This document shows positions 54,231 to 59,160 of a stretch of DNA of 64,000 bases, piece by piece; within the stretch, counting starts at the first letter, position 1; every line of letters begins with the position of its first letter. The DNA is from Acidobacteriota bacterium (GTDB lineage: Bacteria > Acidobacteriota > Blastocatellia > Pyrinomonadales > Pyrinomonadaceae), in NCBI GenBank assembly GCA_025463135.1, contig JAOAPY010000020.1:1-64000 (forward strand), written 5' to 3'. The position numbers and the translations under genes were made by a program. The notes beneath the pieces were generated by a model. It was not told where the DNA came from. It searched no databases and saw only the letters and a program-made list of their open reading frames with translations.

Positions 54231-54528
54231 TAATTCTCCTTTGCCTCAGGGCAAGTGTTTCGTGACGTATTTGACTGCTACGGCAGGAAATTAAAGTTAA
54301 GGTCCAGGTGTTCGAAGACTGCGCGAAGTTCCGAGAGAAATCTGGGCCAGTTTTGACAAGGCTTATACGACGACAGCAAGGGGCTGTCAATCGTTCGCTG
54401 GGCCAAGTGTCGCTGGGCCAAGTGTCGTCCGTCAGACCAAGTCAACTTGTGGGCCAGGTAACTTCAGTGCGTTTTTCTATTCGTTCTTCGAATATTAACG
54501 CGCAAATCTCAGCCCAATTCACTCAGTA
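54231..54528. other. Gap with a 15-bp tandem duplication
   Basis: The unit GCTGGGCCAAGTGTC occurs twice head to tail at 54397-54426. Otherwise no ORF, promoter or structured RNA is supported here. Confidence 0.5.
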
Positions 54529-54577
54529 GAAAACCGAAACGGCAACCCGGGGGCGTTGGGTTGCCGTTTCGGTTTTC
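54529..54577 (-). terminator. Strong hairpin terminator of the ACGGCAAC family
   Basis: A perfect 20-bp stem (GAAAACCGAAACGGCAACCC at 54529-54548 with its complement at 54558-54577) and a 9-nt loop. The right half ends in GGTTTTC on the minus strand. It lies 58 nt after the stop of the secreted protein gene ending at 54635. Confidence 0.8.
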
Positions 54578-54634
54578 AGATGCGAGATTTGCGGGGGAGC
54601 TCGCATCCTGCGCGGGAGACGCTAACCAGTCAAG

Positions 54635-55096
54635 TTACTTTGCAGCGAGGGCGATCTCGACCCTTTCATAGGTGCGCGCTGCCGGCTTGCTCGAAGCAAT
54701 GCGCGAGAGTTCTTTCTGAATCGCACGCTCCTCGCTCGAGGTATTAAGCTGCCGGCCATCGTCCCTCGTGCTCCAGACTTCGGCCAGGAAATAACGCTCA
54801 CCGTAGCGATGGAAAACCAGCTTGGCATGATTGGTAGTACCATTTGCAGGCATCGTCAGCCGCACTGCGGAATTTTCGGAAGCGCCGTCGCTGATCCTCG
54901 AGGCATCGCCCGAAGAAGTTATGGCGCTGACCACATACGCGCCGGCCGGCAAAGTCTGGTCACCAACTACAAATTCAAAGGGAATGCTCGCTTTCGTTTT
55001 CAGCGATTGACCATTAGCCGAAGCAACGGCCGAAACCATTGCGAGCGCCATCAGTGCCATTAACATCGTGAGTCCTTTTAGAAGCTGCTTTCTCAT
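54635..55096 (-). CDS. Small secreted protein (153 aa), conserved acidobacterial type
   Basis: ATG 55096 has AAGGAG 7 nt upstream; the longer frame to 55210 has no site. Signal peptide LTMLMALMALAMVSAVASA. The mature part (KTKASIPFEFVVGDQTLPAG AYVV ... KLVFHRYGERYFLAEVWS ... GRQLNTSSEERAIQKEL) is a small beta-rich fold that I recognise as common in Acidobacteria, without a known role. It has a near-consensus sigma54 promoter 142-158 nt upstream and a strong terminator, so it is a single regulated transcription unit. Confidence 0.78.
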   Translation of the reverse strand: MRKQLLKGLTMLMALMALAMVSAVASANGQSLKTKASIPFEFVVGDQTLPAGAYVVSAITSSGDASRISDGASENSAVRLTMPANGTTNHAKLVFHRYGERYFLAEVWSTRDDGRQLNTSSEERAIQKELSRIASSKPAARTYERVEIALAAK

Positions 55097-55237
55097 TACT
55101 TTCTCCTTGTGCCTTTCGGCGCTGGTCGAAGTTTCGACCGCAAACTTTGTTAGGCTGTAAGCGATCTCTTTGGATCTGCTTTTTACCATCTTTGGCTCAG
55201 CCTCGTTCATCGTTGTCGTCGTGAACAGTGCTCCTCA

Positions 55238-55254
55238 TTGCTAATATCGTGCCA
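55238..55254 (-). promoter_or_regulatory. Near-consensus sigma54 (-24/-12) promoter
   Basis: On the minus strand TGGCACGATATTAGCAA has the full TGGCACG -24 box, exactly 10 nt between GG and GC, and TAGCA in place of TTGCA. The start of transcription is predicted near 55228, giving a leader of about 130 nt to ATG 55096. Confidence 0.7.
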
Positions 55255-55397
55255 GCATCCTGGACTGGGGGATCGAAAAGGTGTGCTGACCGAAAAGTAG
55301 TGCGGAACTCAATAAATCAAGCGCGCACGGCAGTCCTTGTGAGGTAAGTGATTCCCGCCACAAGCAACCGGAAACTCTATCCGATCAGATAGACGTT

Positions 55398-55463
55398 ATC
55401 CGTTCGGATAGCTTTAGCCGATTCGTACGGATAGTTTTGGCCGGTCCGTACGGACAGTTTTGG
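55398..55463. promoter_or_regulatory. Palindromic direct repeats upstream of the sigma54 promoter (candidate enhancer sites)
   Basis: Two 23-bp units at 55418-55440 and 55441-55463 share CGTACGGA and AGTTTTGG and contain the palindrome TCCGTACGGA or a close variant; a third, degenerate unit (CCGTTCGGATAG) lies just before. They are 160-210 nt from the sigma54 site and 175-240 nt from the start of the sigma54 activator gene. Confidence 0.55.
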
Positions 55464-55524
55464 CCCATTCGATTGGCGGTGACGCTCGCGATCATTGCCC
55501 CACTTATGGTCGTGGCCGTAAACT

Positions 55525-55612
55525 TTGACACATGATCTCTGTCTTTAGGATTCTGAAATCTCAGATCTCAAATTTCAGATATCAGATCTCAGACTAATCT
55601 CAGATCTGAAGC
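55525..55612. repeat. CAGATCT-rich repeat tract and possible promoter before the activator gene
   Basis: Three AGATCT palindromes in phrases of the form CTCAGATCTCA lie in 55553-55612. A TTGACA at 55525-55530 is followed 15 nt later by TAGGAT, a suboptimal sigma70 pair, which could drive the regulator gene at 55638. Confidence 0.4.
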
Positions 55613-55637
55613 TCGAGTTCTCAACATCTGATCCAGC

Positions 55638-57512
55638 ATGAACCCCAGACTGGCAGCCATCGCCGGTAAGTTAAAGGGCAGCGTCTTTCCCCTCAGTGAC
55701 GAAGCCGTCGTCATCGGCCGGGAAACCGCCGCTGATCTTTGCCTCGCCGACCGCGCCGTATCGCGGCGCCACTCACGCGTCGAACAAAACTGCGAGCAGT
55801 TCTGGATCAGCGACCTGCAAAGCCTGAATGGCACCTTTGTCAATGACGTGCCCGTAAAGCAGCGCGCGCTGCAACATGGGGATCGCATTCGTATTGGCGA
55901 TACACAGTTCCTGTTTCTGCTGCACGAAGGCGACGTTCCTTCCAAAGCAAGCCATATCCAATTCGACGATCGCCATTTCGTCAGCGGTGCGACAGTTCAG
56001 GTGCGTTTTGACGACGCGCTGTTTTTGATGGCCCGCGACCTTAGCGTTTTGATGAAAGTCAGCACCACCATCAATGCCATTCATGGCCTCGAAGAGCTGC
56101 AGAAGAAACTTTTGGAATTGTTGTTCGAGGCGGTGCCGGCTGAGTGCGGTGCAATTCTTCTTTCCGAGGGAGAGCCCGAAAGCTTTGGGGCGATGTTTGG
56201 TCTGGATCGCGCTGGCAACGTCGATGCGACGGTCCAGGTCAGCAGGACCATCGCCCGTCAGGTCCTGAACGAAGGCGTGGCCATCCTTTGCAACGACCCG
56301 GCCGGCGGTGACACTCCGAACGCCGCGGAGAGTCTGGTCGCGGCGCGTACCAGCGCGCTTTTGTGCGTGCCGCTCAAAATGATGCAACGCACGCTCGGTA
56401 TCATCTACCTCGTCACCAGTGAACCCGCAACGCACTTCGACAATGATCACCTGCAACTGGTCAGTGCGATCGCGGGCATCGCCGCCGTCGCCATCGAAAA
56501 TGCGCGACATGTCGAATCGCTCGAGAGCGAAAACGAGTTACTGCGCGCGGACGCGCGTCTCGAGCACAACATGATCGGTGAAAGCGCGGCCATGCGTCAG
56601 GTCTATGCCTTCATTTCCAGGGCGGGGCCGACCGATGCAACTGTCTTGATTTCCGGGGAGAGCGGCACGGGCAAAGAATTGGCTGCCCGGGCTTTGCACC
56701 AGAGCAGCAAGCGAGCGGACAATCCCTTCATGGCTGTCAACTGCGCCGCGCTCGCAGAATCGCTATTGGAAAGCGAACTCTTTGGACACGAGAAGGGAGC
56801 ATTCACCGGCGCGCTGTCACAAAAGAAAGGCCGGCTGGAAGTGGCCGATGGCGGCAGCCTGTTTCTGGATGAGATTGGAGAGCTATCCCCGGCACTGCAG
56901 GTGAAACTATTACGCGTTCTGCAAGAGCGCGAGTTCGAACGAGTGGGCGGGACGCGGACCATCAAAATAGATATTCGGCTGATTGCCGCCACGAATAAGG
57001 ACCTCGCCGTAGCTATTGCTCAGGGAACTTTTCGACAGGATCTTTATTACCGTCTCAATGTTTTGAATCTCGAGATGCCTGCTCTCAGAAAACGCCTTGA
57101 AGACATTCCGTTACTCGCCAGTTACTTTGCCGCCAAATACTCAGACAAGTGCAACCGCCGCGTGACAGGGATCTCTCTCGAGGGAAAAGAGCGTTTGGTC
57201 AAATATGACTGGCCCGGGAACGTGCGCGAGCTCGAGAACGCCATTGAACGTGCGGTGGTGCTTGGTTCGACGGAGTTGATTCTGGTGGAAGATTTACCGG
57301 AGGCGGTACTGGAGTCCGAAGTCTCAGCGGGAACGCCGCTAACCAAATACCACGAAGCCGTGGCCGAAACTAAGAAGCAGATCATTCTCAGCGCTATGGG
57401 CCAGGCGCAGGGAAGCTACACGGAAGCAGCAAAACTGTTGGGTGTCCACGCCAACTATCTGCATCGCCTGATTCGCAATTTAAATCTCAAGGAGCAGATT
57501 AAGGATAAGTAG
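55638..57512 (+). CDS. FHA-GAF-sigma54 interaction-Fis transcriptional activator
   Basis: 624 aa. FHA domain at about 24-95 ([20 protein letters not shown] ... NGTFVND). GAF domain at about 150-295. AAA+ sigma54-interaction domain at about 310-545 with Walker A GESGTGKE (near 340), the sigma54-contact loop GAFTGA (near 390) and Walker [10 protein letters not shown] Fis-type helix-turn-helix closes the protein ([20 protein letters not shown]). There is no receiver domain, so activity is probably set by FHA binding to a phosphothreonine partner. A Ser/Thr kinase gene converges on it 13 nt away. No clear ribosome binding site precedes ATG 55638. Confidence 0.93.
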
Positions 57513-57525
57513 ACTTCAGAACCTA

Positions 57526-59160
57526 TTACTGCCCATGCAGTCCCTCGCCAATAACCTTCTGCGCCTTTTCTCTGAGCACAACTCTAAAGGCGGCAACCCG
57601 CGAGTCGGCCATATTTTCAGACCATTCCAGGTGGCGCGTTCGTCCGGTCCGGTTATCAGTCTCGACTCTCAAGCTGTAGTCAACTCGCGCGGCGGGATCG
57701 TAAAGGACTAGTCGCAATCCTGAATGCCCGGCCGCGCTGATTCCTGTAAACACCAGCTGGTTCCTATTGTCGCTATACGCATTCACTTTTTCGATCTTCC
57801 ATTTCCTTCCGCGAAAATCCGGCGTGTCCAGCGCGCCCCGATCGGTCACGCGATAATTCGAACCGCTTCGCTCCATCATGAAAAAGTGCGTTCTGCCGGC
57901 TTTGGGTTCGTCATGTATCGCGACTATCGCCGGTCCTCTGACGGTTGAGACCACGGCCACGTCGGCAATCGACCCGCGTGAAAGCGATGCCACAACGCTT
58001 CGCGCCTGCTCTAAAGAAACAGTGGCAGCGGGAGGATTCAATGCCGTCGCCGGACTAGCCATTGGATTCGTACCGTCAGTTGTGTTGCGCGGACGCACAA
58101 TTTCGGCGGCAGATGATTCTGACAACAGATCAACGGCGGGTTTGTCTTTGGGCGAAGCCATCTCCGCCGCCGGCCCGCCATACCCCAACGCCAACAACAT
58201 CGCCCCCATGATCGATACCAGAATCAACGGAGCGGCAAAGCGCAGGAGGGCATGGCGTGGCAGACTGGCTGCCGCGACCGTGGCGTGCAGGGGTTCGAGT
58301 TCCGGCTCGATCTGTTCTGGTTGGGCCAGAGTTCTCTCCAGCAGCGCGCGCACCGCTGCTGCTGTCAACGGCCGATCTTCAGAACGTTTCGCGAGCAGCG
58401 TATGCACGGCAAGCGCAAGCGGGCGCGGAATGTCCGGGCGCAATTGCGGCAAGGGTGGCGGCGCAGTCGTGGCCTGTTTGACAAGAACAACCGAAGGTAA
58501 CGGATCCATGAATGGTGGCCGGCCCGCCAGCATTTCATAAAGGACCACGCCCAGGCTATACAGGTCGCTGCGGGCGCCGACGCGCTGGCCCAGACATTGC
58601 TCCGGTGACATGTAACGCGGCGTGCCGATAATCTGGCCGGAGCCGGTGCTGGCCTGCGAAGTCGTGGCATCGGCCGCCGAAGCAAGGACTTTCGCAACTC
58701 CAAAATCGAGCACGCAAACGCCGCGCTCGTTAAGCATGATGTTCGCCGGCTTTAAATCGCGGTGAATGATGCCAAGCTGGTGCGCTTCCTCCAGTACTTC
58801 GCAAACCTGTATCGCGATACTGACCGCGCGCTCGGCTGAGAAGCGTCCTTCCCGTGCCAGGGCTTCGGACAACGTCACGCCTTCGATAAATTCCATGATG
58901 ATGAAGTGACGGCCGTCGGGTAAATTGCCGGCGTCAAAAATCATGGCTGCGTGCGAATGCCGCAGTTTGGCCATGGTGCGGGCTTCGCGCATGAATCGAT
59001 CGGCGACGTCGGGATCGTCGGCGTATTCAGACTTGATAATTTTGACGGCAACCGAGCGTTGCAGCCCCAGGTGAGTGGCACGATAGACCGTGCCCATGCC
59101 GCCCCTGCCGATTTCACCTTCGATGCGAAACCTGCCGGCGATGAATTGGGGAACATCCAT
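57526..59160 (-). CDS. Membrane-anchored Ser/Thr protein kinase (544 aa)
   Basis: AAGAAGGT lies upstream of ATG 59160. Kinase domain at about 10-275: GRGGMGTVY, VAVKII, IIHRDLKPANI, VLDFGVAKV, GTPRYMSPEQ. A single membrane helix at about 305-330 (FAAPLILVSIMGAMLLALGY) and a C-terminal outer domain of about 190 residues, beta-rich and unassigned (FFMMERSGSNYRVTDRGALD). It is convergent with the FHA-sigma54 activator gene and may phosphorylate a partner recognised by that FHA domain; this is inference. Confidence 0.92.
   Translation of the reverse strand: MDVPQFIAGRFRIEGEIGRGGMGTVYRATHLGLQRSVAVKIIKSEYADDPDVADRFMREARTMAKLRHSHAAMIFDAGNLPDGRHFIIMEFIEGVTLSEALAREGRFSAERAVSIAIQVCEVLEEAHQLGIIHRDLKPANIMLNERGVCVLDFGVAKVLASAADATTSQASTGSGQIIGTPRYMSPEQCLGQRVGARSDLYSLGVVLYEMLAGRPPFMDPLPSVVLVKQATTAPPPLPQLRPDIPRPLALAVHTLLAKRSEDRPLTAAAVRALLERTLAQPEQIEPELEPLHATVAAASLPRHALLRFAAPLILVSIMGAMLLALGYGGPAAEMASPKDKPAVDLLSESSAAEIVRPRNTTDGTNPMASPATALNPPAATVSLEQARSVVASLSRGSIADVAVVSTVRGPAIVAIHDEPKAGRTHFFMMERSGSNYRVTDRGALDTPDFRGRKWKIEKVNAYSDNRNQLVFTGISAAGHSGLRLVLYDPAARVDYSLRVETDNRTGRTRHLEWSENMADSRVAAFRVVLREKAQKVIGEGLHGQ

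Follow-up and report, generated by a model that had tools for sequence, protein, structure and literature searches.

Results

A divergent region with a predicted sigma-54 promoter and paired palindromes

The window analysed here (64,000 nucleotides from an Acidobacteriota bacterium, contig JAOAPY010000020.1) contains two genes that face in opposite directions, and the region between them carries a promoter-like element, palindromes and tandem repeats (Table 1). The original prediction had placed an FHA-type sigma54 activator on the strand leading away from the promoter, and the domain searches agree: the gene encodes an FHA domain (residues 24-87, PF00498, E 6.1e-18), a GAF domain (residues 150-287) and a sigma54-activation AAA+ domain (residues 312-478, PF00158, E 2e-73). 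Its translation contains GESGTGKE (Walker A) and GAFTGA, to which we presumptively assign the usual roles of these motifs, as well as the phosphopeptide-binding residues GR, SRRH and NG, which we take to be those of the FHA consensus. The C-terminus gave no match to a Pfam HTH family and a weak one to a Fis-like protein (PDB 6m10, E 0.093); in the homologues its last helix carries a conserved HPNYLHRL or HPNNLHRL, and the window's activator has HANYLHRL, with Tyr as residue 607. A conserved partner kinase next door to the FHA activator was looked for and did not emerge: a relative of the neighbouring kinase (57526-59160) was found in 1 of 35 other homologue loci (35.7% identity; downstream flank of up to 1.5 kb; 35 of the 75 other copies covered).

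Table 1. Features of the divergent region and their positions in the window.
Feature	Position	Strand	Basis or remark
Terminator-like hairpin, GGCAACCC...GGGTTGCC, T-rich	54534-54582	-	After the secreted gene; ends placed by eye
Secreted 153-aa beta-rich protein with signal peptide	54635-55096	-	Likely start ATG 55096
Sigma-54 -24/-12 promoter, TGGCACG-ATAT-TAGCA (TGGCACGATATTAGCA)	55239-55254	-	Sequence; strand and position conserved in homologues
Operator palindrome 1, CTATCCGATCAGATAG, putative upstream activating site	55377-55392		Conserved in relatives
Operator palindrome 2, TTATCCGTTCGGATAG, putative	55396-55411		Start-to-start 19 bp from palindrome 1
Three tandem 23-nt units	55398-55420, 55421-55443, 55444-55466		Palindrome 2 and two degenerate copies
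Activator gene, FHA-GAF-sigma54	55638-57512	+	Domain searches, translation

The near-perfect TGGCACG-N4-TAGCA promoter that had been predicted to point at the secreted protein gene is indeed present and is conserved in relatives. It has a single mismatch to TGGCACG-N4-TTGCA and retains the GG at -24 and the GC at -12 at the right spacing, in a genome that encodes one copy of rpoN (Sigma54_DBD, E 1.8e-57), a gene that we found in 39 of the 40 genomes searched, this one included. By pattern alone the element is not significant, with 0.42 one-mismatch sites expected per window, and the exact TGGCACG-N4-TAGCA occurs once in the 6,478,997-base genome, at this very place, as often as a reversed control pattern. 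Its weight therefore rests on its conserved place and orientation in relatives and not on pattern counts. Transcription from sigma-54 promoters usually begins about 12 nt past the GC, and with this distance from -12 to +1 the transcript of the secreted gene would be expected to start near 55227. A simple scan of 54300-55750 for sigma-70-like promoters returned none (0.7 expected).

The gene ending at 54635 does lie downstream of the promoter and encodes a predicted secreted protein, as had been proposed, with a signal peptide recognised by eye. Its mechanically defined reading frame opens at 55210; we place the likely start at ATG 55096 because AAGGAGA lies just upstream and the signal peptide begins there, which would leave a leader of about 130 nt. 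The structure model (pLDDT 80.5) has a beta-rich domain with a C-terminal helix. No solved structure matches it clearly, the best Foldseek hit having E 0.4 and the highest Z being 3.5. Pfam and NCBIfam gave no family for the protein, and a PDB sequence search gave no usable identity; within a set of 12 relatives, three families each hit a single member, at E 0.0076 at best. The hairpin beyond the gene is one of two terminator-like sites, a number that is not significant against 1.4 in shuffles, and similar hairpins were seen by eye 3' of the target in three homologous loci (L003, L066 and L006). Since the 8-mer GGCAACCC occurs seven times in the window against 2.5 expected, the genome may use this type of terminator commonly. 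A search of 54300-55700 against Rfam returned two sub-threshold eukaryotic families only, which we took as chance matches.

Upstream of the promoter lie two close matches to CTATCN6GATAG, the only ones in the window at up to one mismatch (0.74 expected), and palindrome 1 is the only mismatch-free CTATCCGNNNNGATAG among the genome matches listed. Two such matches were reached in 18 of 100 shuffles of the window and are thus not significant alone, and because neither the promoter count nor the palindrome count within the window was decisive, we sought support in relatives. The original prediction had described two 23-bp palindromic repeats in this region. The repeats are real and in the right place, but their number is three, with units 2 and 3 showing 83% and 74% identity to unit 1, followed by a fainter fourth unit at 55465-55480 seen by eye; moreover, the conserved pair (55377-55411) only partly overlaps the repeats that had been described, and palindrome 1 had been missed. 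The 16-mers of the degenerate copies lie at 55419-55434 and 55442-55457. A second degenerate direct repeat, based on ATCTCAGATCTCA, is found near the activator start at 55543-55623, separate from the operators.

The genome-wide search for the upstream sites that had been suggested was informative for the pair and not for its parts. The single 16-mer at up to two mismatches gave 294 matches in the genome against 377 for the control and is useless at this scale, and we therefore searched with pairs. A pair model built from 30 pairs, the window's own excluded, found the place in the window with E 5.1e-5 on one strand and 6.5e-4 on the other; the next-best place in the genome reached E 0.34, and no other fell below E 0.3. 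As the model is confident at this place only, the switch in this genome looks dedicated to the region in the window.

The promoter and the palindrome pair are conserved across the class

A sigma54-activator match to the query (E <= 0.001) was found in all 40 genomes searched, this one included; a scan of named genomes gave mainly relatives that share the AAA+ domain alone. Close homologues of the activator (E <= 1e-140) are present in 55 of the 162 class genomes, as 76 copies, and we examined 72 of their upstream regions, having dropped three with almost no upstream DNA (G079:C368, G074:C152 and G149:C265) and one that was too short (L110). Scored against a sigma-54 consensus with weights of our own choice, the best site had a mean of 14.9 on the divergent strand; the opposite strand gave 12.5 and shuffles 12.6. 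Scores of at least 15 were reached in 45 regions on the divergent strand, in two on the other strand and in 1.0 among shuffles, and scores of at least 16 in 30 of the 72, in none and in 0.4 expected, respectively. A CTATCN6GATAG pair scoring at least 16 was present in 55 of the 72 regions (0.2 in shuffles), and 38 combine such a pair with a divergent sigma-54 score of at least 15. In the remaining 17 the pair scored below 16; the best pair of L003, L012 and L078 holds one good palindrome only.

The two palindromes are spaced by exactly 21 bp in 37 of the 55 paired regions and by 20-22 bp in 51, against 19 bp in the window, and the centre of the pair lies 140 bp from the promoter in the window and 137-145 bp in 20 of 48 filtered loci (pair >= 16, promoter >= 13.5, distance 60-180; seven of the 55 fell outside). 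Helical phasing of the promoter-to-pair distance was not significant (p 0.27, unique distances). Beyond the class we examined all 31 match rows: among 19 loci, 10 have a pair of at least 16, nine of these together with a sigma-54 score of at least 15, and among twelve further loci, in three of which the helix motif was not recognised, the pair reached 16 in four and stayed below it in eight.

Of the 72 other loci that we read in the class, 32 have a divergent gene of the same secreted family. The remaining 40, which include most of those whose activator has Asn at residue 607, have something else or nothing recognisable in divergent orientation within 1.5 kb. Five loci (L003, L066, L006, L065 and L116) retain the promoter and operator sites, and in these we found no intact copy of the secreted gene. 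The promoter of L003 and that of L066 are each followed by a frame of 44 codons that encodes little beyond a signal peptide, and both loci keep the promoter, at least one operator palindrome and the terminator-like hairpin; L006 keeps the promoter and the hairpin, and no such protein was seen. Between the 44-codon frames of L003 and L066, 10 changed codons are silent and nine are not, silent changes making up 7 of 10 in the first 31 codons and 3 of 9 in the rest.

Residue 607 of the activator covaries with operator base 6

The operators fall into two kinds by their sixth base, CTATC followed by C or T and CTATC followed by A or G, a base that our operator scoring leaves unconstrained. Residue 607, the variable position of HPN-x-LHRL in the C-terminal helix, sorts this base without error in 59 of 59 homologues: Tyr occurs with a pyrimidine (38/38), Asn with a purine (19/19) and His with a purine (2/2), in a set that omits 13 homologues without a classified pair, L082 (mixed site), L114 and L116 (no HTH) and L070 (masked residues). 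It is the best of 614 protein columns, the runner-up sorting about 90%. Counted by half-site, Tyr goes with 133 C/T and no A/G, Asn with 70 A/G and 4 C, and His with 7 A/G. On a quickly made tree that leaves out the final 60 residues, we used 58 of the 68 rows with 600 aa or more; residue and base agree in all 58, and each trait shows five changes. Independent contrasts between Tyr and Asn number five on all branches and two on strongly supported ones; with so few, the formal sign test is weak and falls short of significance.

Nine genomes (G009, G130, G137, G010, G023, G033, G147, G148 and G134) encode both Tyr-type and Asn/His-type copies, each of which adjoins the matching kind of operator; in G140, the Asn copy L082 has a mixed site. 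Outside the class, the 10 paired loci of the first 19 all encode Tyr proteins and have a pyrimidine at 31 of 32 half-sites. Among the four paired loci of the twelve further ones, three with Tyr fit in the majority of half-sites and one with Asn (L335) is mixed. These comparisons make the rule firm for Tyr and, given the mixed sites of L082 and L335, looser for Asn. In one genus outside the class (L268 and L271-L273), activators with HPK-Y-LHRL adjoin GGTATCC...GG sites, as seen by eye, and the outermost base of the operator may be related to residue 606 in a similar way.

Since the covariation of residue 607 with base 6 would be hard to explain if another protein bound the palindromes, we infer that the activator binds the pair at 55377-55411. 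A single amino acid of the recognition helix thus appears to set which sites each activator recognises. Such insulation between activators would matter, as this genome encodes 36 strong sigma54-activator domains (E < 1e-60) and one rpoN; the 36 are among 42 matches, a count that is loose at its weak end, where a control also matches in 14 of 14 genomes.

Operator pairs also occur away from activator genes

Across the class, strict pairs stand at 63 distinct places, spread over 43 genomes; the control gave 10 matches, counted by strand. Of these places, 22 lie away from activator genes, and in 15 of the 22 a sigma-54 site scoring at least 15 is found within 500 bp. Among the genes that follow such sites are further ones of the secreted family (L156, L159, L160 and L163) and others for exported-looking proteins.

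Two genomes, G030 (L147-L151) and G071 (L154-L157), have several operator pairs that are not next to the activator gene. A sigma-54 site of at least 15 is near all five of these pairs in G030 and near one of the four in G071, before genes for exported-looking or secreted-family proteins. This distribution points to a wider regulon in these two genomes than in that of the window. The window's genome does encode a second protein of the secreted family (L250, G000:C49:72867-73301), which we do not claim as a further target, as no operator pair lies close upstream; the upstream region has no complete -24/-12 site, and the best nearby site is without the -12 GC.

Discussion

It is very probable that a genuine sigma-54 switch lies between the two divergent genes. 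We further consider it highly likely, from the comparison of sequences, that this is a dedicated switch composed of the activator, the pair at 55377-55411, the promoter at 55239-55254 and the secreted gene at 55096-54635. The classic enhancer layout that had been predicted, in which the activator would act directly on the secreted gene, gains support from the conserved promoter and pair, from the presence of rpoN and from the fit between residue and base in 59 of 59 homologues.

The readings that compete with this one differ in what they make of the palindromes. They could belong chiefly to the activator gene, which would repress or activate its own expression, activation of the secreted gene being secondary; such autoregulation would suit the 21 of 55 paired homologues in which the pair starts within 110 nt of the activator start, as well as the five loci that keep promoter and sites with no intact secreted gene. 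We think it unlikely, however, since the distance from the pair to the sigma-54 site is the tighter of the two (103-152 bp in 46 of the 48 filtered loci, a figure that the filter itself bounds) and that to the activator start ranges from 50 to 394 nt over the 55 loci, since pairs also precede sigma-54 sites away from activator genes, and since the scan for a sigma-70-like promoter came back empty. Palindromes by themselves do not identify the protein that binds them, and another DNA-binding protein, for example a repressor, could use them while the activator acts without them or elsewhere. This we hold to be very improbable, because a column of the activator itself sorts operator base 6 without error, and because paralogues within the same genome have different, matching operators. 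That a sigma54-like string and fortuitous repeats have met in a divergent region by chance would accord with the lack of significance of either pattern within the window, but it has a negligible probability given a conservation across 72 homologue regions that far exceeds shuffles and a genome-wide pair match obtained with a model that excluded the window's pair.

The part played by the tandem repeats is more evenly balanced. The extra 23-bp copies would be tandem duplicates of palindrome 2 that either serve as weak auxiliary sites or are decaying, and we lean very slightly towards decaying duplicates without a role, the pair at 55377-55411 acting alone. The left half-sites of units 2 and 3 are no longer CTATC, their identity to unit 1 has fallen to the values given above, and the regions of orthologues usually have no more than two sites (17 regions, by eye). 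On the other hand, the copies still show dyad symmetry centred on CGTACG and follow one another at regular intervals of 23 bp, and the genomes searched for conservation of the tandem copies include none of the same genus.

Returning to the reading that we favour, a dedicated sigma-54 switch, we propose that dimers of the activator would bind the pair through the C-terminal Fis-like helix-turn-helix, as the covariation suggests. By analogy with its protein families, the activator would oligomerise through the AAA+ domain, loop over about 140 bp and use ATP to open sigma54-RNA polymerase at the promoter, upon which the secreted gene would be transcribed. The input is probably a phosphothreonine signal at the FHA domain and a small ligand at the GAF domain, as is familiar from these domain families. 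Residue 607 would discriminate base 6, Tyr accepting C or T and Asn or His mostly A or G, which would keep paralogous activators of the same genome on separate operators.

A lineage for which our searches returned no such system would thereby gain a defined and directly assayable triple of sigma-54 activator, operator and target. The family amounts to a natural test, across many species, of how Fis-like recognition helices choose DNA, in which a single residue appears to determine one base of the operator and seems to be what keeps paralogues within a genome apart. The switch would also be a handle on when a secreted protein that has no curated Pfam or NCBIfam model is produced.

The family, the operator and the residue-to-base switch did not come up in the titles and abstract openings of the open-licence literature searched, and a term search of PMC12316311 gave no mention of "Acidobacteri-". 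The layout is a textbook one; on that scope, the regulator family, its operator and the residue switch are apparently undescribed. We find it somewhat more probable than its opposite that the FHA-GAF sigma-54 activators form a phylum-wide, apparently undescribed family, each member typically beside its own enhancer, in which an exchange of Tyr with Asn or His at residue 607 repeatedly switches the preferred operator base and so insulates paralogous switches from one another within one cell, with secreted proteins as the targets of many.

Among known systems, one of the closest is NtrC at glnA, an enhancer-binding protein with paired upstream sites. The predicted system resembles the NtrC type in its AAA+ sigma-54 activator with GAFTGA, its predicted Fis-like HTH, its -24/-12 promoter and its palindromic sites about 100-150 bp upstream. 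Unlike NtrC, the activator in the window has FHA and GAF sensor domains and no receiver, the operator is CTATCCGN2CGGATAG with palindromes mostly 20-22 bp apart, and the proposed target is a small secreted protein. A survey of sigma-54 presents it in general terms as a controller of the bacterial exterior, a theme that a secreted sigma-54 target fits, and in the parts considered we saw neither the window's regulator nor its operator or target family (PMC3162934). The regulons of enhancer-binding proteins (EBPs) in Desulfovibrio vulgaris were described from orthologous EBPs, conserved palindromes such as yGTCA-N6-TGACr and sigma-54 promoters near the regulator gene, which is the same kind of inference as ours in a different lineage; FHA does not occur in its main text, and in the passages considered we saw no residue-to-base covariation (PMC4641369). 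Residue 607 lies in the predicted recognition helix and aligns with the Thr of RGTLRKK in Fis (PDB 6m10), subject to the weakness of that match. According to the part of the report considered, the DNA-binding domain of LuxO has been probed by alanine scanning, and that work is the mutagenesis of one protein, whereas the exchange at residue 607 would be a specificity switch across a whole family (PMC11407668).
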